From: a virus
IMG/VR virus record: IMGVR_UViG_3300021598_001798
Span: 1 to 64,000 of that record
Reading direction: 5' to 3' (one strand)
DNA length: 64,000 nt
The notes under the pieces were generated by a model. That model saw only the letters and a program-made list of their open reading frames with translations, had not been told where the DNA came from and searched no databases. The translations under genes and the position numbers were made by a program. Every line of letters begins with the position of its first letter. Position 1 is the stretch's first letter. Positions 3,599-64,000 of this stretch are shown piece by piece.

Positions 3599-6496
3599 AT
3601 GTCAGAAGTTATTTCTCAAGAGGTAATCGAAAGTTTTTTAAATGGTTGGGACCCTGAAGAATACATTGTAGGGGTTGAATACGATTACCAAACCAACAAA
3701 ATTTACAAAATTATTCAAGACCCTGTAAGGGGTAAGGTAGTAAAACCCGACACTTTAACTCCATTTCTATGGGTTGGTGATTTAAGTTCTTGTAATTTCT
3801 ATCAAGGAAGTAAATCCATACAAAAGAAAAAAATGGGGGAATACGGTATTATTATTGATAAACTTGAGACCCAAGGTAATGATAGACTTGAAAATGGACA
3901 AAATTTTTTAGTAAAAAGTCTAAAGGGTTATCGTGAATTAATTAGTTTTTTCAAACAAGGCGGTATTGACCCGTGGGGTGATAATTTTAAACACTTATTT
4001 ACTATTTTATCACCTGTAGAACAATATCTTATTCAAAAGAAAAAAAGATTATTTAAAGGTATTGATGATTATTCAGGTGTTCATCGATTTGTATTCGATA
4101 TCGAGACCACGGGCCTTGAACCTGAGACTAATGAGATAATTCTTATTGGAGTAAAGGACAACCGTGGTTTACAAAAAACCATACCCGCTTTTGGTCCTGA
4201 TGGTGAGAAAAAATGTATCGAAGAATTTTTTGAAATAATAAAAGAATTAAAACCAACAATTATTGGTGGGTATAATTCAGCGTCATTTGACTTTCCATTC
4301 ATATTAAAAAGAGCCGAAATTTTAGGTGTTGATATTGTTGAGTGTACATCAATACTCACATCGGATGGGATTAAACAAAAAGAAGGTGTATTAAAGTTAG
4401 CAAATGAAATTGAACCTTACACTCAACATATCATTTGGGGTCATAATATTGTTGATATCGCTCACGCAGTAAGAAGGGCACAAGCAATTAATTCGGAAAT
4501 TAAATCTTGGGGATTGAAATACATTACCCAATATTTGGAAAAAGAAAAACCAAATCGGGTATATGTCGATGGTGCTTTTATTTCAAAAATATATTTGGAA
4601 AATGATAGTTATTACGTTAACCCTAAAACAGGTAAATACAAAAAGATTGGTGAACCCGGTACTGAAAATTTATTAGACAAATACCCTAATAAATACGAAA
4701 TATGGCCAGGTCAAAGAATTGTAGAACAGTATCTTGATGATGACTTGTACGAAACAATGATTGTGGATGATTCGTTCTCTCAATCTACGTTCTTACTTTC
4801 TAAATTGGTACCAACAACTTATGAAAGAATTGCAACGATGGGAACTGCAACACTTTGGAAAATTATCATGTTAGCTTGGTCATATGAAAACGGTTTGGCA
4901 ATACCCACCAAAGATGAAAAAAGAGCAATTACAGGAGGTCTTTCAAGATTATTAAATGTCGGATACTCCAAGAATATTGTAAAATTTGACTACGCATCTC
5001 TTTACCCATCAATCCAATTGGTTTATGATGTATTTCCTGAATGTGATGTTATGGGTGTTCAGAAGTCTATGTTAAAGTACTTTAGAAACATTCGTATCAA
5101 ATATAAAAGACTTGCTGGTGAACTTAAAGATAGTGACCCCGTACAAGCAGAAATGTACGACCGTAAACAATTACCAATCAAGATTTTTATCAACGCTTAT
5201 TTTGGTTCCTTGTCCGCACCACAGGTATTTCCATGGGGTGATATGAACATGGGTGAAACCATCACATGTACTGGTCGTCAGTGTCTTCGTATGATGATTA
5301 TGTTCTTTGAGAAAAAAGGATATAAACCTCTTGTAATGGATACGGACGGTGTTAACTTTTCTACTCCCGATGATATTGATACCCACATATACATTGGTAA
5401 AGGTTTGAATGAATTAGTAGAAGAAGGGAAAGAATACGTTGGTATCGAAGCAGATACCGCGGAATTCAATGACACTTTTATGAGAAATGAAATGGGTCTT
5501 GATATTGATTACACCGCACCTGCGTGTATCAACGTTTCAAGAAAAAATTACATCATTAAACTTCTTAAAAAAGGTAAAGAAAAAATCAAACTTACGGGGA
5601 ATACTATTAAATCAAAAAAACTTCAACAATATGTTGTAGAATTTTTAGATGAAGGATTAAAACACCTATTAAATGGCGATGGATTATCTTTTGTTGAGCT
5701 TTATTACAGATATGTCCAACAAATTTATGATAAGAAAATCCCATTGTCTAAAATGGCTAATAAGTCTCGTGTAAAACAATCGGTCGAGGATTACAAAAAA
5801 CATATTAAAAAAACCACGAAAGCTGGTTCTTTGATGTCTCGACAAGCACATATGGAGTTGGTTATTCAGAATAACTATCCCGCCAGTCTTGGTGAGACCA
5901 TTTACTATATTAATAATGGTGAAAAAAAATCAGACGGTGATGTTCAGAAAATAACAAAACCAACCAAAAAACAACAAGAGGAGTTTACTAAATTACACGG
6001 TAAACCAATGCCAGATAATTACATACAGATTAATTGTTACATGATTTCTGAAAAGGAGTTAACAAACAATCCCGACATGACTGGTGATTATAACGTGGCG
6101 AGATACTTGACTAATTTTAATAAGAGAATAGAACCATTGTTAGTTGTTTTCAACCCTGAAATACGTCACGATATTTTGGTTGAAAAACCCGAAGACAGAC
6201 AATATTTTACAAGAGCTCAATGTGAATTAGTAAGTGGGTTTCCTCTTAAGGAAGATGGTCAAGATAAGTACGATGAGGTAATGACACTATCTGATAGTGA
6301 AGTACTATTTTGGAATAGAGTAAAAAGAGACCCTTTCTTTATGTATGTGGAGGACAGTTTGAAGTTAGCAGACCCTTATTGGGTGGATTTGAATAGAAAA
6401 GTGGTATCTCTACAAGCTGAAAGTATCAAGAGTAATGAGGATGAGATTATTCAGACCAACGGTAATGATTACGCTTATCACGCAACCAATATCTAA
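3599..6496 (+). CDS. 43: Family B DNA polymerase with 3'-5' exonuclease (T4 gp43-like)
   Basis: This 965-residue protein is the replicative polymerase. Exo I is VFDIETTGLEP near residue 166 (Asp-Ile-Glu), and Exo II is GGYNSASFDFPF near 224. Polymerase motif A is FDYASLYPSIQ near 463, motif B (Lys plus NAYFGS) is near 525-535, and motif C is MDTDGVNFS near 580. Motif C has Gly where most family members have Ser (DTDS); both catalytic aspartates are kept. T4 gp43 is about 900 residues, so this one is slightly longer. The start ATG at 3599 follows an A-rich leader without Shine-Dalgarno, downstream of a small hairpin. No TATTTATA octamer lies directly upstream, in keeping with early expression. 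The stop codon abuts the stop of the convergent neck gene with no spacer. Confidence 0.95.
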   Translation: MSEVISQEVIESFLNGWDPEEYIVGVEYDYQTNKIYKIIQDPVRGKVVKPDTLTPFLWVGDLSSCNFYQGSKSIQKKKMGEYGIIIDKLETQGNDRLENGQNFLVKSLKGYRELISFFKQGGIDPWGDNFKHLFTILSPVEQYLIQKKKRLFKGIDDYSGVHRFVFDIETTGLEPETNEIILIGVKDNRGLQKTIPAFGPDGEKKCIEEFFEIIKELKPTIIGGYNSASFDFPFILKRAEILGVDIVECTSILTSDGIKQKEGVLKLANEIEPYTQHIIWGHNIVDIAHAVRRAQAINSEIKSWGLKYITQYLEKEKPNRVYVDGAFISKIYLENDSYYVNPKTGKYKKIGEPGTENLLDKYPNKYEIWPGQRIVEQYLDDDLYETMIVDDSFSQSTFLLSKLVPTTYERIATMGTATLWKIIMLAWSYENGLAIPTKDEKRAITGGLSRLLNVGYSKNIVKFDYASLYPSIQLVYDVFPECDVMGVQKSMLKYFRNIRIKYKRLAGELKDSDPVQAEMYDRKQLPIKIFINAYFGSLSAPQVFPWGDMNMGETITCTGRQCLRMMIMFFEKKGYKPLVMDTDGVNFSTPDDIDTHIYIGKGLNELVEEGKEYVGIEADTAEFNDTFMRNEMGLDIDYTAPACINVSRKNYIIKLLKKGKEKIKLTGNTIKSKKLQQYVVEFLDEGLKHLLNGDGLSFVELYYRYVQQIYDKKIPLSKMANKSRVKQSVEDYKKHIKKTTKAGSLMSRQAHMELVIQNNYPASLGETIYYINNGEKKSDGDVQKITKPTKKQQEEFTKLHGKPMPDNYIQINCYMISEKELTNNPDMTGDYNVARYLTNFNKRIEPLLVVFNPEIRHDILVEKPEDRQYFTRAQCELVSGFPLKEDGQDKYDEVMTLSDSEVLFWNRVKRDPFFMYVEDSLKLADPYWVDLNRKVVSLQAESIKSNEDEIIQTNGNDYAYHATNI

Positions 6497-14210: not shown

Positions 14211-17066
14211 ATGGCAAATTCAAATAGAGTTTTTGTATCTCCGGGTGTATATACATCTGAAAAAGACTTAACATTCGTAGCACAAAGTGTTGGTGTGAGC
14301 ACATTAGGTTTGGTGGGTGAAACCTTAAAAGGTCCCGCTTTTGAACCTGTATTAATAACTAATTTTGACGAATTCAAGTCATATTTTGGGGGAACAAGTC
14401 CGTTAAAAGACAACAATAACAATCCAAAATATGAATTACCTTATTTCGCAAAATCTTATTTAGAAGAATCTAACCAAATGTTTGTAACAAGAATATTAGG
14501 TTTAACGGGTTATTTACCTGTCAAAACTTATGGTGTTAAAACAATTGGTGGGGTTACATTGGGGGCTCTTAGTGGAACAACCACAAGTTTAACAATGTCA
14601 GCATCGACCACAACAATTACAGCAAGTACGATTTATAGTGAACTATCAGATAAAATATCTGTAGATGGAAATTATATTACAGAATATATTGTAGCAAACT
14701 TTAGTGGTAACACATCATCTAACCATGGACAATGGTTTGTGATGGGTGAAGTACCAACTTCAGGAACAAGTGGTCAAACATCATCACTTGAAGAAGTTTC
14801 TCCTTTAACAGGTTTGAATAACGCAAGTAATTACAACAATAAGGAATGGTTCAATAAACTTTGTAACACCACAGGTTCTGAAGTATATTCTTACTTATTT
14901 GTTTATAACAGCGGTGCGAGTAGATTTGATGTGACTAAGTACACATACTATGGAACATTGAACACGGCGTATGATGGACAAGTGGTTTTAGCGTTCAGAC
15001 CAAGAGGTTCTTACAATGGACAAACATTAAACTTGGAAACTACCGCAGATGTAAATTTTGTGGTTACAGGTTCAGGAATCACTACAAATCCATTAGCTGA
15101 ATTTACAGTTAATGTTACAGGTTCAACAAGTGGACCAAAATCATTCACTTGTAGTATGGACTCTTCGTCATCAAAATATGTAACAAAAGTTTTTGGTACC
15201 GATGTTTATGACAAATTAAAAAGTGATGTACCTGTGTATGTTTTTGAATCTTATCCAAATTACTTACAAAGAGCATATGAACAAGGTTTAATTAGAGGTT
15301 TAAGTTTAACAGAAGTTTTCGAACATGTTGGTAACGACTTTAAAACATCTTGGGATACCCCAATGACACCAACTGTTGTATCAGAGGTTAGAGGTGGTGA
15401 AGTTGATGATTTATTTGATGTAATCACAGTATCAGATGGTGATTCTGCAAACTACGAAGTAAAAGTTTCAATTATTAATATTGATGTAAACACTGGTGAC
15501 TTTGACTTAATCGTTAGAGACTTTAATGATACAGACGATAATTTAGTTGTACTTGAAAAATTTGGTAGATGTAATATGAATCCAGATTTACCAGGATATG
15601 TTGCTAAAAAAGTTGGTACATCTGATGGTGAATATGAATTACGTTCAAGATACATTATGTTGTCAATGGCTGATAATCACCCAACCGACGCATATCCTGC
15701 AGGATTTAAAGGATTTACAAACAACACATCTTTTGGTTCAAGTACTTTAGGTTCGGTGATGTACAAGACTACATTCTATAACGCTGGTGATACTACATCT
15801 TATCAAGCCGATGGAACACCTGTTTTATCTTCAGGTGACAAAGTAAGAAGAACATACTTTGGTTTATCAAGTCCAACAAACGCAGTAACATACGATAGAG
15901 ACTTGTTTAAATTCAAAGGAACATCAGCAGCTGGAACAACTAAGGGTTTCCACTTATCAACAAACGCATCTACAATCACAGGAACAACCTTCTTAACCAC
16001 GTCGTATGATTTAGAGGGTCAAACAGGTGGAGCGAATAACGTATTAACAAATATCAATTATCGTAAATTCACATTCGCAGCGGCTGGTGGATTTGACGGT
16101 TGGGATATCTACAGAAATGTGAGAACCTACGGTGATGGATACATCTTTGGTAAAAATACTTACACAAGTGGTAACACTAATAATGGTGGTGTATTTAGTA
16201 CAGTATCAGGAAACTCTGACTACTACGCTTACACTCAAGGTATTGATACCTTCGCAAACCCTGAAGCTGTTGATGTAAACATCTTCGCAACACCAGGTAT
16301 CAACTTCTATGACCACAGTTCATTAACATCTTACGCAATTGATATGATTGAAGAAGATAGAGCGGATTCACTTTATGTGATTTCATCACCAAACTACGGT
16401 ACAGCGGATGAAGTAATAGACGCTTTGGACGGCGTAGCAATTGATAGTAACTACTCAGCGGTTTACTGGCCTTGGATTCAAGTTAGAGACGCAGACAACG
16501 CTACACAATTATACTTACCACCAACAGGTGAAGTATTGAGAAATATAGCATTAACAGATAACGTATCTTTCCCTTGGTTCGCGGTAGCGGGTTATTCAAG
16601 AGGTTTAGTAAACTCAATCAAAGCTTATAAGAAATTAACTTTGGATGAGAGAGATGACCTTTACAAAGCGAGAATTAACCCTATCGCAACATTTGCGGAT
16701 ACCGGTACAATCATTTGGGGTAATAAAACACTTCAAGTACGTGAATCAGCTTTGGATAGAATTAACGTAAGAAGATTACTGTTAAGAGCAAGAAAATTAA
16801 TTTCAGCAGTAGCGGTAAGATTGTTATTTGAACAAAACGACGAACAAGTTCGTAATGAGTTTTTGAGATTGGTTAACCCGATATTAGACGCAATTAAGAG
16901 AGAAAGAGGTTTGTATGAATTCCGTGTAACGGTTTCCAACGACCCTGAAGATATTGACGCTAATACTTTGAGAGGTAAAATTTACATTAAACCAACAAGA
17001 GCTCTTGAATTTATCGATGTTGAATTCATAATCACACCAACAGGAGCATCATTTGATAATATCTAA
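14211..17066 (+). CDS. 18: Tail sheath protein (T4 gp18-like)
   Basis: The 951-residue protein begins MANSNRVFVSPGVYTSEKDL, the standard sheath N-terminus (x-SPGVYxxExD), followed by GLVGETLKGPAFEPVLITNF. The C-terminal 250 residues hold the conserved sheath core. They include AIDSNYSAVYWPWIQVRD, LPPTGEVLRNIALTD, PWFAVAGYSRGLV, ARINPIATFADTGTIIWGNK, LDRINVRRLLLRARKLI and FRVTVSNDPEDIDANTLRGK. It is about 300 residues longer than T4 gp18, with the excess in the Ser/Thr/Gly-rich middle, which should form outward-facing insertion domains. It polymerises around the tube and contracts at infection. The gene is followed by a GC-rich hairpin terminator, then the non-coding locus and the tube gene. 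Confidence 0.97.
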   Translation: MANSNRVFVSPGVYTSEKDLTFVAQSVGVSTLGLVGETLKGPAFEPVLITNFDEFKSYFGGTSPLKDNNNNPKYELPYFAKSYLEESNQMFVTRILGLTGYLPVKTYGVKTIGGVTLGALSGTTTSLTMSASTTTITASTIYSELSDKISVDGNYITEYIVANFSGNTSSNHGQWFVMGEVPTSGTSGQTSSLEEVSPLTGLNNASNYNNKEWFNKLCNTTGSEVYSYLFVYNSGASRFDVTKYTYYGTLNTAYDGQVVLAFRPRGSYNGQTLNLETTADVNFVVTGSGITTNPLAEFTVNVTGSTSGPKSFTCSMDSSSSKYVTKVFGTDVYDKLKSDVPVYVFESYPNYLQRAYEQGLIRGLSLTEVFEHVGNDFKTSWDTPMTPTVVSEVRGGEVDDLFDVITVSDGDSANYEVKVSIINIDVNTGDFDLIVRDFNDTDDNLVVLEKFGRCNMNPDLPGYVAKKVGTSDGEYELRSRYIMLSMADNHPTDAYPAGFKGFTNNTSFGSSTLGSVMYKTTFYNAGDTTSYQADGTPVLSSGDKVRRTYFGLSSPTNAVTYDRDLFKFKGTSAAGTTKGFHLSTNASTITGTTFLTTSYDLEGQTGGANNVLTNINYRKFTFAAAGGFDGWDIYRNVRTYGDGYIFGKNTYTSGNTNNGGVFSTVSGNSDYYAYTQGIDTFANPEAVDVNIFATPGINFYDHSSLTSYAIDMIEEDRADSLYVISSPNYGTADEVIDALDGVAIDSNYSAVYWPWIQVRDADNATQLYLPPTGEVLRNIALTDNVSFPWFAVAGYSRGLVNSIKAYKKLTLDERDDLYKARINPIATFADTGTIIWGNKTLQVRESALDRINVRRLLLRARKLISAVAVRLLFEQNDEQVRNEFLRLVNPILDAIKRERGLYEFRVTVSNDPEDIDANTLRGKIYIKPTRALEFIDVEFIITPTGASFDNI

Positions 17067-17073
17067 TAAAAAG

Positions 17074-17097
17074 GGGAGGGGAAACCCTCCCTATTTT
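17074..17097 (+). terminator. Terminator-like hairpin after tail sheath gene
   Basis: GGGAGGG-GAAA-CCCTCCC is a 7-bp GC stem closed by a GAAA tetraloop, followed by TATTTTAT. It starts 7 nt after the sheath stop codon. The T-tract is interrupted, but the stem is strong. Confidence 0.7.
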
Positions 17098-17115
17098 ATG
17101 TTCCACGTGGAACAT
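17098..17115. other. parS-like centromere palindrome
   Basis: ATGTTCCACGTGGAACAT is a perfect 18-bp palindrome. Its inner 16 bases, TGTTCCACGTGGAACA, differ by one base from the classical ParB-binding site TGTTCCACGTGAAACA, and they are the fully symmetric form known from several bacterial chromosomes. The site lies in non-coding DNA 32 bp after the sheath gene. No ParB gene is present in the window. ParB binding is inferred from sequence identity only. Confidence 0.6.
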
Positions 17116-17192
17116 TATAATATAGTGTGACCTACGGAATTACCAAATATAAAAAAAATAAAATTATAAATTACCCAGTATATGCACCAGTA

Positions 17193-17293
17193 TTCTAGTT
17201 CTAGTTCTAGTTTATTTTTATCTAGTTTATTTCTTTATAGTTATTCTAGTTTCTTTAATCTAGTTCTTAATTTACTAGCATCTAGTACTAGTA
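17193..17293. repeat. CTAG cluster (nine copies, consensus WTCTAGTT)
   Basis: CTAG occurs at 17195, 17201, 17207, 17222, 17246, 17260, 17275, 17282 and 17288. The first three are a tandem TTCTAG hexamer repeat; the last two form CTAGTACTAG, itself a palindrome. Several copies extend to TTCTAGTT. From base composition alone, well under one CTAG would be expected in about 100 bp of such AT-rich DNA. The array looks like a set of protein-binding sites (iteron-like). Its function is unknown. Confidence 0.75.
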
Positions 17294-17365
17294 TGGAAAA
17301 AATACGAAATAATTTTCACAAAATCAAGTATTGAGAAGATTTTTTTTGTTTTTTCATATACAACA

Positions 17366-17373
17366 TATTTATA
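17366..17373 (+). promoter_or_regulatory. Putative late promoter octamer TATTTATA of tail tube gene
   Basis: TATTTATA lies 41 nt before the tube ATG at 17415, followed by an almost pure A/T leader, as for the sheath gene. Confidence 0.5.
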
Positions 17374-17414
17374 AGAAAGATTAAAAATAAAAAAATTAAA
17401 AAACAAATATTGAC

Positions 17415-17903
17415 ATGGCAGATTTATTAATGAAAATGCCGGTTCCTTACGAACCGAAGAGAGTTAACCGATTCATACTTAGATTCCCATCATCATTGGG
17501 TATTAACGAGTGGTACGTAACCTCAAGTGCAAGACCTAGTGCAAAAATTAACTCAGTTGCAATTCCTTTCATCAACACATCAACATACGTAGCTGGTAGA
17601 TTTGAATGGAATGAAATAAGAGTAACCTTCAAAGACCCTATTGGTCCTTCAGCGGCACAAGCATTGATGGAGTGGTTCCGTCTACACGCTGAATCAGTTA
17701 CAGGTCGTATGGGTTACGCAGCTGGTTACAAAAAAGATATTGAATTAGAAATGTTAGACCCAACGGGGGTTGTGGTTGAAAAATGGATACTTCAAGGTTC
17801 TTTCATAACCGACTTAAACTTTAACGAACTTGATTATTCAAGAGATGATATTGCATCTATCACATGTTCGTTAAGAATGGATAGATGTATATTAGTTTAC
17901 TAA
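17415..17903 (+). CDS. 19: Tail tube protein (T4 gp19-like)
   Basis: The 162-residue protein has the length and pattern of T4 gp19 (163 residues). It starts MADLLMKMPVPYEPKRVNRF and continues with WYVTSSARPSAKINSVAIPF, FEWNEIRVTFKDPIGPSAAQ, LMEWFRLHAESVTGRMGYAA, YKKDIELEMLDPTGVVVEKW, and a C-terminal LNFNELDYSRDDIASITCSL. Hexamers of this protein stack to form the rigid inner tube through which DNA passes. It has its own late octamer and a strong terminator directly after it, so it can be expressed as a monocistronic unit. The reading frame continues beyond the TAA without another stop into the gp26-like gene (see findings). Confidence 0.97.
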   Translation: MADLLMKMPVPYEPKRVNRFILRFPSSLGINEWYVTSSARPSAKINSVAIPFINTSTYVAGRFEWNEIRVTFKDPIGPSAAQALMEWFRLHAESVTGRMGYAAGYKKDIELEMLDPTGVVVEKWILQGSFITDLNFNELDYSRDDIASITCSLRMDRCILVY

Positions 17904-57166: not shown

Positions 57167-60100
57167 ATGGCATTAATAAAAATAAACACAGGTAATTTTG
57201 ATGGTGAAATTGGTGTTATCACATTTTATCCTTGTACTGGCGGTACCTTGAATTTAGGTACTGTCGTGATGCCATATTATTACGACACAAACTACTACTT
57301 AGGTACTTACTCAGTTTATTTTCCGTCACTTGATAAAACTTGTGTGGCTGAGATTCCTTGCCCTACACCTTCACCTACACCTTCACCAACACTTACACCA
57401 TCATTAACACCAACACCAACAACCTTTACTTCAAATACCCCAACCCCAACAGTTACCAAAACCCCTACTGTTACACCTACGGTTACAAAAACACCTACTG
57501 TTACCCCAACCAATACTATCACTCCAACAAATACTCCTACGAATACCGTAACTCCGACTAATACTCCAACAAACGAGCCTACAGTTACCCCAACTGAAAC
57601 TCCTACAGTTACTCCAACTAACACAGTAACTCCAACCAATACCCCAACAAATACCCCAACGGTTACCCCAACTGAAACTCCTACAGTTACCCCAACTAAC
57701 ACAGTAACTCCAACCGAATCACCAGCCAACACACCTACTGTAACTCCTACGAATACAGTTACACCAACCGAGACACCAACTGTTACTCCGACCGAAACTC
57801 CAACTGTAACCCCAACAAATACGGTAACCCCAACCAATACACCAACTGAAACACCTACCAACACCCCAACAAATACAGTTACCCCTACCGAAACTCCAAC
57901 TGTAACTCCAACAAATACGGTAACCCCTACCGAAACACCTACCAATACACCAACTCATACAGTAACCCCTACCGAAACACCAACCAATACCCCAACTAAT
58001 ACACCGACTGAAACACCCACTAACACCCCAACAAATACTGTTACCCCAACTAATACACCAACCGAAACACCAACCGAAACACCAACCAATACCCCAACCA
58101 ACACCGTAACTCCAACTGTTACCCCAACTGTTACCCCAACTGTAACTCCAACCAATACTGTTACCCCAACTAATACACCAACCGAAACACCAACCGAAAC
58201 ACCAACCAATACTCCAACCAACACCGTAACCCTAACCGTTACCCCTACCGAAACACCAACCAACACCCCAACTAATACTCCGACTAACACAGTAACACCA
58301 ACACTGAGTCCAACCGTTACCCCTACCGAAACACCTACCAATACCCCAACCAACACCATAACACCAACTAACACTCCGACTAATACCTCAACTGTAACTC
58401 CAACCAATACTGTAACTCCAACCAATACACCCACTGTAACACAAACTGAAACACCTACCCTAACACCAACAAATACTGCAACCGTTACACCAACTCAAAC
58501 CCCAACCAATACTCCTACCAATACTGTTACACCAACGGTTACCCCAACTAACACTCCAACTGTAACTCCAACAAATACGGTAGCTCCAACTAATACACCT
58601 ACAAATACACCAACCGAAACACCAACAAATACCCCCACCAACACACCAACAAATACTCCCACAGAAACACCAACACTTACACCAACCAACACCGTAACCC
58701 CTACCAATACAGTCACACCAACCAATACTGTTACAGTGACTCCAACAGAAACTGTGACACCAACTAATACACCTACAAACACCCCAACTAATACACCAAC
58801 AAATACGGTTACACCTACGAATACTCCAACCAACACAGTAACTCCAACAAATACTCCAACTAACACTCCAACATTAAGTCCTACCAATACCGTAACTCCT
58901 ACCAACACCCCAACAAACACACCGACGAATACAGTAACTCCAACTCAGACACCTACAAATACTCCTACAAATACCGTTACACCAACCAATACCCCAACCA
59001 ATACCCCAACCAACACCGTAACTCCAACAAACACTCCTACCAACACTCCTACAAACACTCCCACAAATACCGTAACTCCAACCAACACCGTAACTCCGAC
59101 TAATACACCTACAAACACACCAACGAATACTGTGACTCCTACATTGAGTCCTACGGTAACACCAACTAACACCGTAACACCAACCAATACTCCAACCAAT
59201 ACACCTACCAATACTGTGACTCCTACATTGAGTCCTACGGTAACACCAACTAACACCGTAACACCAACCAATACTCCAACTAACACGCCGACCAACACTC
59301 CTACTAACACTGTAACACCAACATTGAGTCCAACAGTGACTCCAACCAATACAGTTACCCCCACAAACACCCCGACAAATACTGTAACTCCAACCAATAC
59401 TGTAACTCCAACAAATACACCAAGTGTAACTGTGACGGTTTCACCAACACCAGCACCTTCTTGTGACATTGATTATACAATGTTACCCTCACCAACTCCA
59501 ACGAGCACCCCAACACCCACCAATACTCCAACGGTAACACCAACCAACACTGTAACACCATCCGTTACATTAACCAATACTCCCACAAACACACCAACCA
59601 ATACAGTAACTCCTACTAACACCCCAACTAATACACCAACAAAAACTGTTACACCAACTTTAACTCCAACAAATACTCCAACTAATACTGTAACACCAAC
59701 CAATACACCAACAAACACTCCTACCAATACAGTTACTCCTACATTGAGTCCAACAGTTACTCCTACCAATACTGTTACCCCAACCAATACTCCTACCAAT
59801 ACCCCAACCAATACAGTTACACCTACATTGACTCCAACAGCGACCCCAACCAACACCGTAACCCCTACAAATACCCCAACATTAAGCCCCACCAATACTC
59901 CAACCAACACCGTAACCCCTACAAATACTGTAACACCAACGAATACCCCAACCAACACTCCGACAAACACCCCAACAAACACTGTAACACCAACCAACAC
60001 TCCAACAAACACTGTAACACCGACCAATACTCCAACAAATACCCCTACTAATACTGCTACTCCTACAAATACACCAACTAATACTCCTACCAATACGGTA

Positions 60101-63100
60101 ACCCCTACAAATACACCAACTAACACTCCTACCAATACGGTATCCCCAACACTGACACCTACTAACACCCCTACGAACACCGTAACACCAACAAACACAC
60201 CAACTAACACACCAACTAATACTGTAACACCAACTAACACTCCTACCAACACCCCAACCAACACAGTTACTCCTACCAATACGCCAACTAATACTCCTAC
60301 CAATACGGTAACGCCAACATTGAGTCCAACAGTGACTCCAACCAATACCGTTACACCAACTCAAACCCCTACAAATACCCCAACTAACACCGTAACACCA
60401 ACCAATACACCTACGAATACCCCCACTAATACTCCAACAAATACCGTAACCCCAACAAACACGCCTACGAATACACCAACAGTAACCCCTACCAATACCG
60501 TAACCCCAACAAATACACCGACGGTAACTCCGACCAATACAGTCACACCAACTAATACACCAACCAACACTCCTACCAATACGGCTACCAATACAGTTAC
60601 TCCTACCAATACACCCACAAATACACCAACAAATACGGTTACACCAACTAACACTCCTACTAATACTCCAACAAATACCGTAACACCGACACTGACACCT
60701 ACAAATACCCCGACAAACACTCCAACCAATACAGTTACTCCAACCAATACTGTAACTCCTACCAACACCCCTACCAACACCCCAACAAATACTCCAACAA
60801 ATACAGTCACCCCAACTAATACTCCAACCAATACTGTCACCCCTACCAATACTCCTACAAACACCCCCACCAATACTGTCACCCCTACCAATACTCCTAC
60901 CAATACTCCTACAAATACAGTAACTCCAACTAACACCCCAACAAATACTCCAACAAATACAGTCACCCCAACCAATACTCCTACCAATACGCCCACCAAT
61001 ACTGTCACCCCTACCAATACTCCTACCAATACTTCTACAAATACAGTAACTCCAACTAATACTCCTACCAATACGCCTACTAATACTGTAACTCCAACCA
61101 ACACCCCAACTGTAACTCCTACCAATACTGTTACACCAACAAACACTCCTACTAACACACCAACCAATACTGTTACACCAACAAACACTCCTACTAACAC
61201 ACCAACCAATACGGTAACTCCTACCAACACCCCAACTAACACACCAACCAATACGGTAACTCCTACCAACACCCCAACTAACACCCCAACAAATACTGTT
61301 ACACCAACAAATACTCCCACCAATACCCCAACAAACACGGTGACTCCAACAAACACTCCTACTAACACCCCAACAAATACAGTAACACCAACATTGAGTC
61401 CTACAGTAACTCCTACGAACACAGTAACTCCTACAAATACTCCCACAAACACTCCGACCAACACCGTTACACCAACAAATACCCCAACCAATACCCCGAC
61501 AAATACAGTAACCCCAACTAACACACCTACCAACACTCCAACTAATACAGTAACTCCCACATTAAGTCCAACTGTGACTCCTACTAATACTGTGACTCCT
61601 ACAAACACTCCTACCAACACACCAACAAATACAGTTACACCTACATTGAGTCCAACAGTGACTCCAACCAGCACCGTAACCCCAACTAATACGCCAACAT
61701 TAAGTCCTACCAATACTCCAACCAACACTGTTACTCCTACAAATACCGTTACACCAACCAATACACCTACCAATACCCCAACAAACACCGTAACCCCAAC
61801 ACTAACCCCAACTAACACTCCAACCAATACTCCTACAAATACGGTATCTCCAACCAACACCGTAACCCCAACAAATACACCAACTAACACTCCAACCAAT
61901 ACTCCCACCAACACTGTTACTCCAACCAACACCCCGACCAACACTCCGACTAATACAGTAACTCCTACCAATACCCCAACAAATACCCCAACAAATACAG
62001 TTACACCTACATTGAGTCCAACGGTGACTCCTACTAATACTGTAACTCCTACCAACACTCCGACCAACACACCAACCAATACTGTTACACCTACATTGAG
62101 TCCAACGGTGACTCCTACTAATACTGTTACACCCACTAACACGCCAACTAACACTCCTACTAACACTGTAACACCAACTCAGACTCCCACGAACACGCCT
62201 ACAAATACAGTAACACCTACTAACACACCTACTAATACACCAACAAATACGGTAACACCAACCAACACCCCTACGAACACGCCGACTAACACCCCAACCA
62301 ATACAGTCACACCAACTAATACCGTAACTCCAACAAATACGCCAACCAATACTCCTACCAATACGCCAACCAATACCGTAACACCAACTCAGACACCGAC
62401 AAATACCCCAACAAAAACTGTTACACCAACATTGAGTCCGACTGTGACACCAACAAATACTGTTACTCCAACCAATACCCCCACCAATACTCCAACTAAC
62501 ACAGTAACCCCAACCAATACTCCAACTGTAACACCTACGAATACTGTTACACCTACAAATACACCGACGAATACACCAACCAATACGGTAACTCCAACCA
62601 ACACCCCAACCAATACCCCAACTAGTACTGTTACACCAACATTAAGCCCGACACTAACACCAACCAATACAGTAACTCCAACATTGAGTCCGACTGTAAC
62701 TCCAACAAGAACGGTTACACCTACTTTAACACCAACCAATACACCGACAAATACGGTAACCCCTACAAATACTCCCACCAACACCCCAACAAACACTCCA
62801 ACCAATACAGTCACCCCAACAAACACCGTAACACCAACCAACACCCCCACAAACACTCCAACCAATACTCCAACAAACACCGTAACACCAACCAACACAC
62901 CAACCAAGACTGTAACTCCAACCAATACCCCAACCAATACTCCAACTAATACAGTAACCCCAACTAATACACCAACCAATACTCCAACGAACACCGTAAC
63001 TCCAACCAACACCCCAACCAACACTGTAACTCCAACAAATACACCTACAGTTACCCCGACTAACACAGTAACACCTACACTGAGTCCGACTGTAACCCCT

Positions 63101-64000
63101 ACGAATACAGTTACACCAACTCAGACACCTACAAATACTCCAACTAACACCGTAACTCCTACCAACACACCAACTAACACACCAACTAACACTGTTACAC
63201 CCACAAATACACCAACCAATACAGTTACTCCTACCAATACACCTACTAACACTCCAACTAACACAGTAACCCCTACCAATACCCCTACGAACACTCCTAC
63301 TAATACAGTAACTCCTACAAACACCGTAACACCAACCAACACACCAACCAATACTCCAACCAACACTGTCACCCCTACATTGAGTCCTACGGTAACTCCT
63401 ACGAACACAGTTACCCCTACTAACACACCGACTAAGACCGTGACTCCCACATTGAGTCCGACTGTGACTCCTACAAATACTGTTACACCAACTCAAACCC
63501 CTACGAATACACCAACTAATACAGTTACACCAACTAATACACCTACAAACACCCCAACAAATACAGTTACACCTACAAATACCCCAACTAACACTCCAAC
63601 CAATACAGTAACCCCTACACTGAGTCCAACCGTAACACCAACTAATACTGTCACACCCACGAATACACCAACCAATACCCCTACGAATACTGTAACCCCT
63701 ACCAACACCCCTACTAATACTCCTACAAATACGGTTACACCAACTAACACTCCAACAAGAACGGTTACACCTACTTTAACACCAACCAATACACCGACAA
63801 ATACGGTAACCCCTACAAATACTCCCACCAATACCCCAACAAACACGGTGACTCCTACATTAACACCAACTGTAACTCCTACAAATACCGTAACACCAAC
63901 CAATACTCCTACAAATACTCCTACTAACACAGTAACACCTACCAATACCCCTACAAACACACCAACAAACACTGTAACTCCAACTAACACCCCTACTAAT
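57167..64000 (+). CDS. Giant Pro/Thr/Asn repeat protein, 3' end beyond window
   Basis: An ATG at 57167 opens a frame that stays open to the last base, 2278 codons, and continues outside. Residues 1-62 form a domain homologous to the N-terminus of the 1549 gene ([36 protein letters not shown]). From residue 64 on, the protein is a low-complexity repeat built from PTNT and VT units ([15 protein letters not shown]), with variants PTETPT and PTLSPTVT. One non-repeat island near residue 764 reads [19 protein letters not shown]. Third codon positions vary freely among ACA, ACT, ACC and ACG while the amino acids stay constant, so the repeat is maintained at protein level. It is probably an extended rod or bristle on the virion anchored by the N-terminal domain; this is inferred. 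No exact late octamer precedes it, only AT-rich sequence with TATTTTTATA. Confidence 0.8.
57400..64000 (+). repeat. 12-bp-period degenerate coding repeat, extremely G-poor plus strand
   Basis: About 6.6 kb are made of 12-bp units coding for Pro-Thr-Asn-Thr, interspersed with 6-bp Val-Thr units. The plus strand is made almost entirely of A, C and T with few G. Longer exact duplications lie inside it, including an 83-bp copy at 62699-62781 and 63749-63831 (offset 1050 bp) and a 71-bp copy at 59126-59196 and 59210-59280 (offset 84 bp). All offsets are multiples of three. Confidence 0.85.

Follow-up and report, generated by a model that had tools for sequence, protein, structure and literature searches.

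The gap between the tail sheath and tail tube genes of this phage holds an exact copy of the bacterial centromere site parS, which is probably a loading site for the ParB protein of the host. Within the window, the 64,000-nucleotide stretch analysed here (positions 1 to 64,000 of a 69,884-base virus contig, IMG/VR record IMGVR_UViG_3300021598_001798), positions 17098–17115 form an 18-bp perfect palindrome, ATGTTCCACGTGGAACAT, whose inner 16-mer, TGTTCCACGTGGAACA (17099–17114), is an exact bacterial parS and fits the 16-bp parS palindrome TGTTYCACGTGRAACA. The identity of this element as parS is well supported by its sequence. The assignment to host ParB, which is probable, draws on that identity, on the junction position shared with relatives, on the placement of mismatches among them, on the absence of ParB_N matches from the phage records, and on the excess of parS palindromes in viral contigs.

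An initial annotation of this DNA had placed a perfect palindrome between the sheath and tube genes, equated its inner 16 bases with the symmetric form of parS, and judged an exact parS very unlikely to arise by chance. These points were all borne out: profile matches identify the two genes on either side, the 16-mer is identical to parS, and ~6e-6 exact copies are expected by arithmetic at the window GC of 0.34. Two places in the window match the parS 16-mer with up to three mismatches, compared to 0.40 expected from shuffles, which leaves the exact match as the sole informative one. A count over the full record, which the annotation had proposed, gave a single place within two mismatches in the 69,884 bases, namely the window site itself. 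The binding site of Noc is TATTTCCCGGGAAATA, which the window palindrome does not match, its core there reading CACGTG. The features of the gap, in order, are as follows.

14211–17066, + strand: tail sheath gene, 951 aa (phrog_23 tail sheath, 1.3e-59)
17066–17099, + strand: intrinsic-terminator-like hairpin 3′ of the sheath gene (arm complementarity, folding)
17098–17115, no strand assigned: 18-bp palindrome with inner parS at 17099–17114 (sequence, junctions of relatives)
17125–17134, no strand assigned: possible decayed second half-site, GTGTGACC... (by-eye junction comparison, weak)
17174–17296, no strand assigned: CTAG/CCAG-rich module (CYRG counts, junction sequences)
17365–17374, + strand: candidate late-promoter motif for the tube gene, ATATTTATAA (by eye)
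17415–17903, + strand: tail tube gene, 162 aa (phrog_4542 tail tube, 9.5e-25)

The sheath–tube gap is 348 nt long, and the palindrome lies ~300 nt ahead of the tube gene. The terminator-like hairpin has 15-nt arms (17066–17080 and 17085–17099) that are 87% complementary, and the palindrome begins within its 3′ foot, an overlap that the initial annotation did not mention. The counterpart of the possible half-site in two relatives (L128 and L216) reads GTGTGAAACA, by a weak by-eye comparison. The CTAG/CCAG-rich module is present also at junctions that have no parS-like element; CYRG occurs 8.2 times per junction compared to 1.4 in shuffles (82 junctions), and 9 of the 41 CTAGs of the window fall in the 500-nt bin 17001–17500. 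A ATATTTATNA-like motif, possibly a late promoter, recurs by eye upstream of several + strand late genes.

The phage looks like a large T4-like myovirus. Further gene matches in the record are a DNA polymerase, gp32, and a SNF2-type helicase, which we name UvsW-like, and a RecA match falls below the curated cut-off. Among the isolate matches listed for the sheath and tube are Flavobacterium phage immuto, Rhodothermus phage RM378 (tube), and Microcystis phage Mel-JY01, the last being the best-scoring of those listed. The nearest isolates suggest Bacteroidota as the putative host phylum. The three isolated relatives that were fetched have short sheath/tube gaps with no parS-like element; RM378 has the two genes in divergent orientation, and its junction is therefore not equivalent to that of the window. 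Toward the end of the window, an open + strand frame (57167–64000, at least 2278 aa, running past the window end) consists mostly of TPTNTPTxTPT-like repeats, which would account for the local GC of 0.44 and a GC skew near −0.7.

The junctions of related phages were collected from two relative searches, each limited to the best 80 of at least ~600 candidates and thus leaning to close relatives, together with the loci of the viral scan, L001, and the window, giving 140 junctions, 92 of them distinct. A site within three mismatches of TGTTYCACGTGRAACA was found at 61 of the 92 distinct junctions, compared to 0.45 expected from dinucleotide shuffles with any position free to differ, and all 16 positions matched at nine. 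For positions 1 to 16, the mismatches in the 61 sites number 6, 0, 6, 0, 0, 1, 2, 6, 20, 18, 1, 0, 0, 0, 2, and 34, either letter being allowed at positions 5 and 12. Positions 9, 10, and 16 thus hold 72 of the 96 mismatches, positions 3 and 8 hold six each, and positions 2, 4, 13, and 14 hold none. The remaining 31 distinct junctions, about a third, have no site within three mismatches, indicating that the parS-like element is dispensable in the phage family. Ten of the 92 junctions (L014, L141, L143, L157, L170, L171, L201, L218, L240, and L260) span 0.7–2.2 kb, a length suggestive of inserted genes.

The commonest form of the element, G[TC]T[TC]C-N4-G[AG]AAC, occurs at 57 of the 92 junctions compared to 0.06 in mononucleotide shuffles. 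Because this pattern itself fixes positions 2, 4, 6, 11, 13, 14, and 15, conservation within the 57 elements that it selects is unusable as evidence, and the free-mismatch search was used instead. The centres of these elements are ACGT (19), ACAT (15), ACGA (6), ACAA (5), ACGC (4), ATGT (3), ACGG (3), and GTGT (2), and 56 of the 57 keep an intact arm. The strict form, GTTYCACGTGRAAC, is a minority of 14; among the other 43, 38 break the CACGTG core. The expectation that the site is kept at related junctions was accordingly upheld for a parS-like element, seen at 61 of the junctions, and failed for the 31 without one and for the strict core, which most elements lack. One clade of relatives carries C at position 3. 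Extra half-sites were seen at 7 of 54 junctions, all from two clades; the half-site search gave 12 matched positions compared to 0.6 expected, and since its patterns overlap these correspond to ~7 sites.

A tree was built from 82 of the 92 rows, the ten others having too short a sheath or tube piece. Strict parS is found in 13 rows, with five changes, a degenerate element in 40, and none in 29, a distribution that could be read as a neutral relic of an ancestral phage that gained parS and whose descendants mostly lost it. We regard such a relic as quite improbable, given that 61 junctions carry a site where 0.45 were expected, that the mismatches are uneven over the 16 positions, and that the core is retained throughout the clade of the window. 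In that clade, the CACGTG core is present in the strict form in all nine rows, and positions 5, 12, and 16 are the sole ones at which the 16-mer varies, whereas the next ~30 nt diverge with indels.

The tolerance of known ParB sites bears on the degenerate forms. In the study of Pseudomonas aeruginosa PAO1 (PMC4368675), ten natural parS sites are described, two of which (parS2 and parS3) are the exact TGTTCCACGTGGAACA palindrome; others include TGTTCCACGTGGAACC, TGTTCCACGAGGAACG, and TGTTCCACAGGGAACA, and the positions at which the sites vary include 9, 10, and 16. In the same study, PAO1 sites with one intact arm have intermediate ParB affinity and outrank those in which both arms are altered; integrity of the CACGTG core is important, ParB preferring sites that have it (PMC4368675). 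For Burkholderia parSc1, a change of the 1–16 pair and a transition of the 5–12 pair are tolerated, and three of the ParBs in that study bind half-sites well (PMC5450999). The half-parS of P. aeruginosa is given as GTTCCAC or GTTTCAC in a review (PMC7022226). The three positions at which the phage mismatches cluster are therefore variable in the PAO1 sites as well. The core-breaking changes in most of the non-strict phage forms should nevertheless lower ParB affinity.

The main rival to the host-ParB reading is that a phage or host regulator other than ParB binds GTTCC-N4-GGAAC upstream of TATAA and controls transcription of the tube gene, the perfect parS being an extreme form of this operator. 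TATAA does lie 7–8 nt after the element in 18 of 35 non-redundant cases; the sheath-proximal (left) arm is the better kept one, in a fixed orientation, suggesting a directional role; and the element has a single place in 15 of the 17 records that have it. However, the TATAA spacing is seen for 16 of 25 degenerate elements and only 2 of 10 strict ones (L014 and L174), and the element of the window is without it. In addition, viral contigs, most of them unrelated to the family, show a great excess of this 16-mer, and the mismatches fall at positions similar to those that vary in known ParB sites. We therefore consider the operator unlikely.

Two further readings concern the transcript. An RNA hairpin with a GUUCC stem and an ACNN loop, acting in the sheath–tube read-through mRNA, would fit the location of the element 3′ of the terminator-like hairpin, the possible 5-bp stem, and the variation of loop bases 3 and 4. 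It is very improbable, because C-A mismatches occur at pair 2 in 6 and at pair 4 in 5 of the 57 elements, both sides are changed at pair 4 in only four, so that the pair tally does not reveal the compensatory changes of a structured RNA, and the element itself forms no hairpin in the minimum-energy fold of a 101-nt window segment. Rfam gave no matches within the window at gathering thresholds. The start of a small ORF, ATG TTY CAC NNG GAA, is suggested by the many elements that begin with ATG and read MFHxE. This is the least credible reading and can hardly hold: differences between related pairs (13 junctions) are near equal over the codon positions (175/130/129), the frame length ranges from 0 to 57 codons, and codon 4 varies at its first two positions with the third fixed. 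Both the hairpin and the ORF were set aside on these grounds.

For the host-ParB reading, the copy number of the site and the presence of a phage ParB are relevant. In 20 records, namely that of the window and 19 relatives chosen for size, many of them fragments, GTTYCACNNGRAAC was found in 17, at one place in 15 and at two places in two (G002 and G019); it occurs nowhere in G011, G015, and G017 (74–176 kb). In the four records compared by coordinates (G000, G001, G002, and G003), the place is the sheath/tube junction. ParB_N (PF02195, the sole ParB model used) had no match in the 20 phage records, several of which are fragments, and matched 10 of 14 control genomes. The initial annotation had also raised the possibility that the phage encodes its own ParB elsewhere; with no match to this single model in any of the 20 records, that proposal is not supported.

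The parS 16-mer spans several phyla, with at least 116 stretches in a scan of genome contigs. Of 60 sampled Flavobacteriales genomes, 30 carry TGTTYCACGTGRAACA in 1–3 copies each and the other 30 have none; a reversed-pattern control matched none of the 60. ParB_N was found in all 15 Flavobacteriales genomes tested, among them three that lack the strict 16-mer (G034, G037, and G039), and parB was not seen near parS in the four that have both on one contig (G076, G042, G031, and G085). Paired parS sites ~1.9 kb apart recur in Flavobacteriales genomes, and in one Flavobacteriaceae genome (L325) such a pair of 16-mers brackets gidA/mnmG. In nine Bacteroidota genomes, chosen since they hold the 16-mer, the clustered sites have the CACGTG core, save for a series of four GTTCCACCGGAAAC on a single G023 contig.

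From binding and spreading to every consequence at the phage parS, the course of events that we infer is the following. Host ParB would load at the site as a CTP-dependent clamp and then spread along the phage genome, as in the known ParB–parS mechanism. As the main outcome, the phage genome would be handled as a low-copy replicon, positioned or retained by host ParA/ParB, which would matter above all during slow infection. As a next outcome, replicated phage genomes might titrate host ParB, since Flavobacteriales chromosomes have so few sites. The possible uses of the site would thus include genome positioning or retention, ParB titration, and local transcription. Condensin loading, genome segregation, and sequestration of ParB from the host chromosome, which the initial annotation had suggested, would likewise depend on such binding.

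The parS excess in viral contigs is a more interesting result than the window site itself. Exact IMG/VR scans returned at least 120 rows each for TGTTCCACGTGGAACA and TGTTTCACGTGAAACA, whereas three control palindromes of base composition equal to TGTTCCACGTGGAACA gave 12, 2, and 5 matches; parS palindromes are in excess over matched controls. Among the 120 TGTTCCACGTGGAACA loci listed, only 2 contain the sheath or tube of the window's phage family, and the contigs are mostly unrelated to it. Simple gene calls on the 120 loci listed put 66 of 127 TGTTCCACGTGGAACA sites between genes (20.8% of random places) and 27 no more than 60 nt 3′ of a stop (3.5%). For TGTTTCACGTGAAACA, 82 of 145 sites are intergenic (18% of random places) and 22 lie near a stop (3.8%) in the 119 loci listed. 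The control palindromes are intergenic as well (8 of 19), and intergenic bias was rejected as proof of parS function; with 1 of 19 controls near a stop, near-stop placement may, weakly, be particular to parS.

In 45 records from the listed TGTTCCACGTGGAACA loci, two of which (L014 and L066) belong to the window's family, ParB_N had no match. Terminase-like matches, some of them weak, were seen in 16 of the 45 using two models, one being phrog_2, which we take to be a terminase, and both models also match cellular control genomes. Some of the remaining parS records could be cellular DNA. In two loci (L037 and L095), parS lies near a major head gene.

An INPHARED search with a 30-nt query gave 343 records at an E-value limit of 10, at which chance matches are expected. 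Eleven named phages picked from these matches, which show occurrence and not frequency, were fetched. Nine contain TGTTYCACGTGRAACA: phi29, Xenohaliotis phage, phiPsa374, XD2, KPP25, BUCTxx99, Listeria LM 4-11-1, Perkons, and Ep020. Bitten differs from it at the last base, and the site is absent from SP18. ParB_N was absent from nine of the ten searched (all except SP18) and present twice in BUCTxx99, so that eight of the nine phages with the strict site had no ParB_N match. In KPP25, parS abuts the end of the gene preceding the major head gene. In phiPsa374 (L428: 389–404), TGTTTCACGTGGAACA lies inside the annotated direct terminal repeat, and related Pseudomonas phage records have matches at similar places.

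These cases place the window phage among known systems. Chromosomal parS of Pseudomonas and Bacteroidota is the same 16-mer; in contrast, the window copy occurs at a single place in its record, between late structural genes of a phage with no ParB_N match. Bacillus phage phi29 carries TGTTCCACGTGAAACA within gene 17 and, like the window phage, has no ParB_N match, but its site is intragenic, and phi29 is an unrelated podovirus of a sporulating host. Spo0J (ParB) reportedly has a role in trapping phi29 DNA in spores, a finding credited to Meijer and colleagues in 2005. KPP25 and the Otagovirus phiPsa374 resemble the window phage in having TGTTYCACGTGRAACA with no ParB_N match, yet belong to other phage groups and have the site elsewhere, in a gap before a head gene and in a direct terminal repeat, respectively. 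P1-type phage-plasmids share with the window phage a centromere on the phage genome. They encode their own ParA and ParB, unlike the window phage, whose record has no ParB_N match. In the literature searched, which covers subscription journals thinly, no report of host-type parS in ParB-less phages was found.

Taking these viruses together, we tentatively propose, at somewhat less than even confidence, that unrelated viruses commonly keep one or a few host-type parS sites with no ParB, frequently in intergenic DNA or late modules, so that the clamp formed by host ParB would mark, position, retain, or shield the viral genomes, or would be titrated away from the chromosome as phage copies build up. 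ParB/parS is a near-universal bacterial centromere, and a phage with the DNA half alone could hijack it for 16 bp. The viral parS excess may bear on phage genome persistence in slow or dividing hosts.

One 28.9-kb viral contig (L105), in which no ParB_N was found, has five perfect parS palindromes within ~6.1 kb, at 4324, 6308, 8135, 9161, and 10442. Several of them lie just 3′ of a stop codon, ahead of similar promoter-like sequences.
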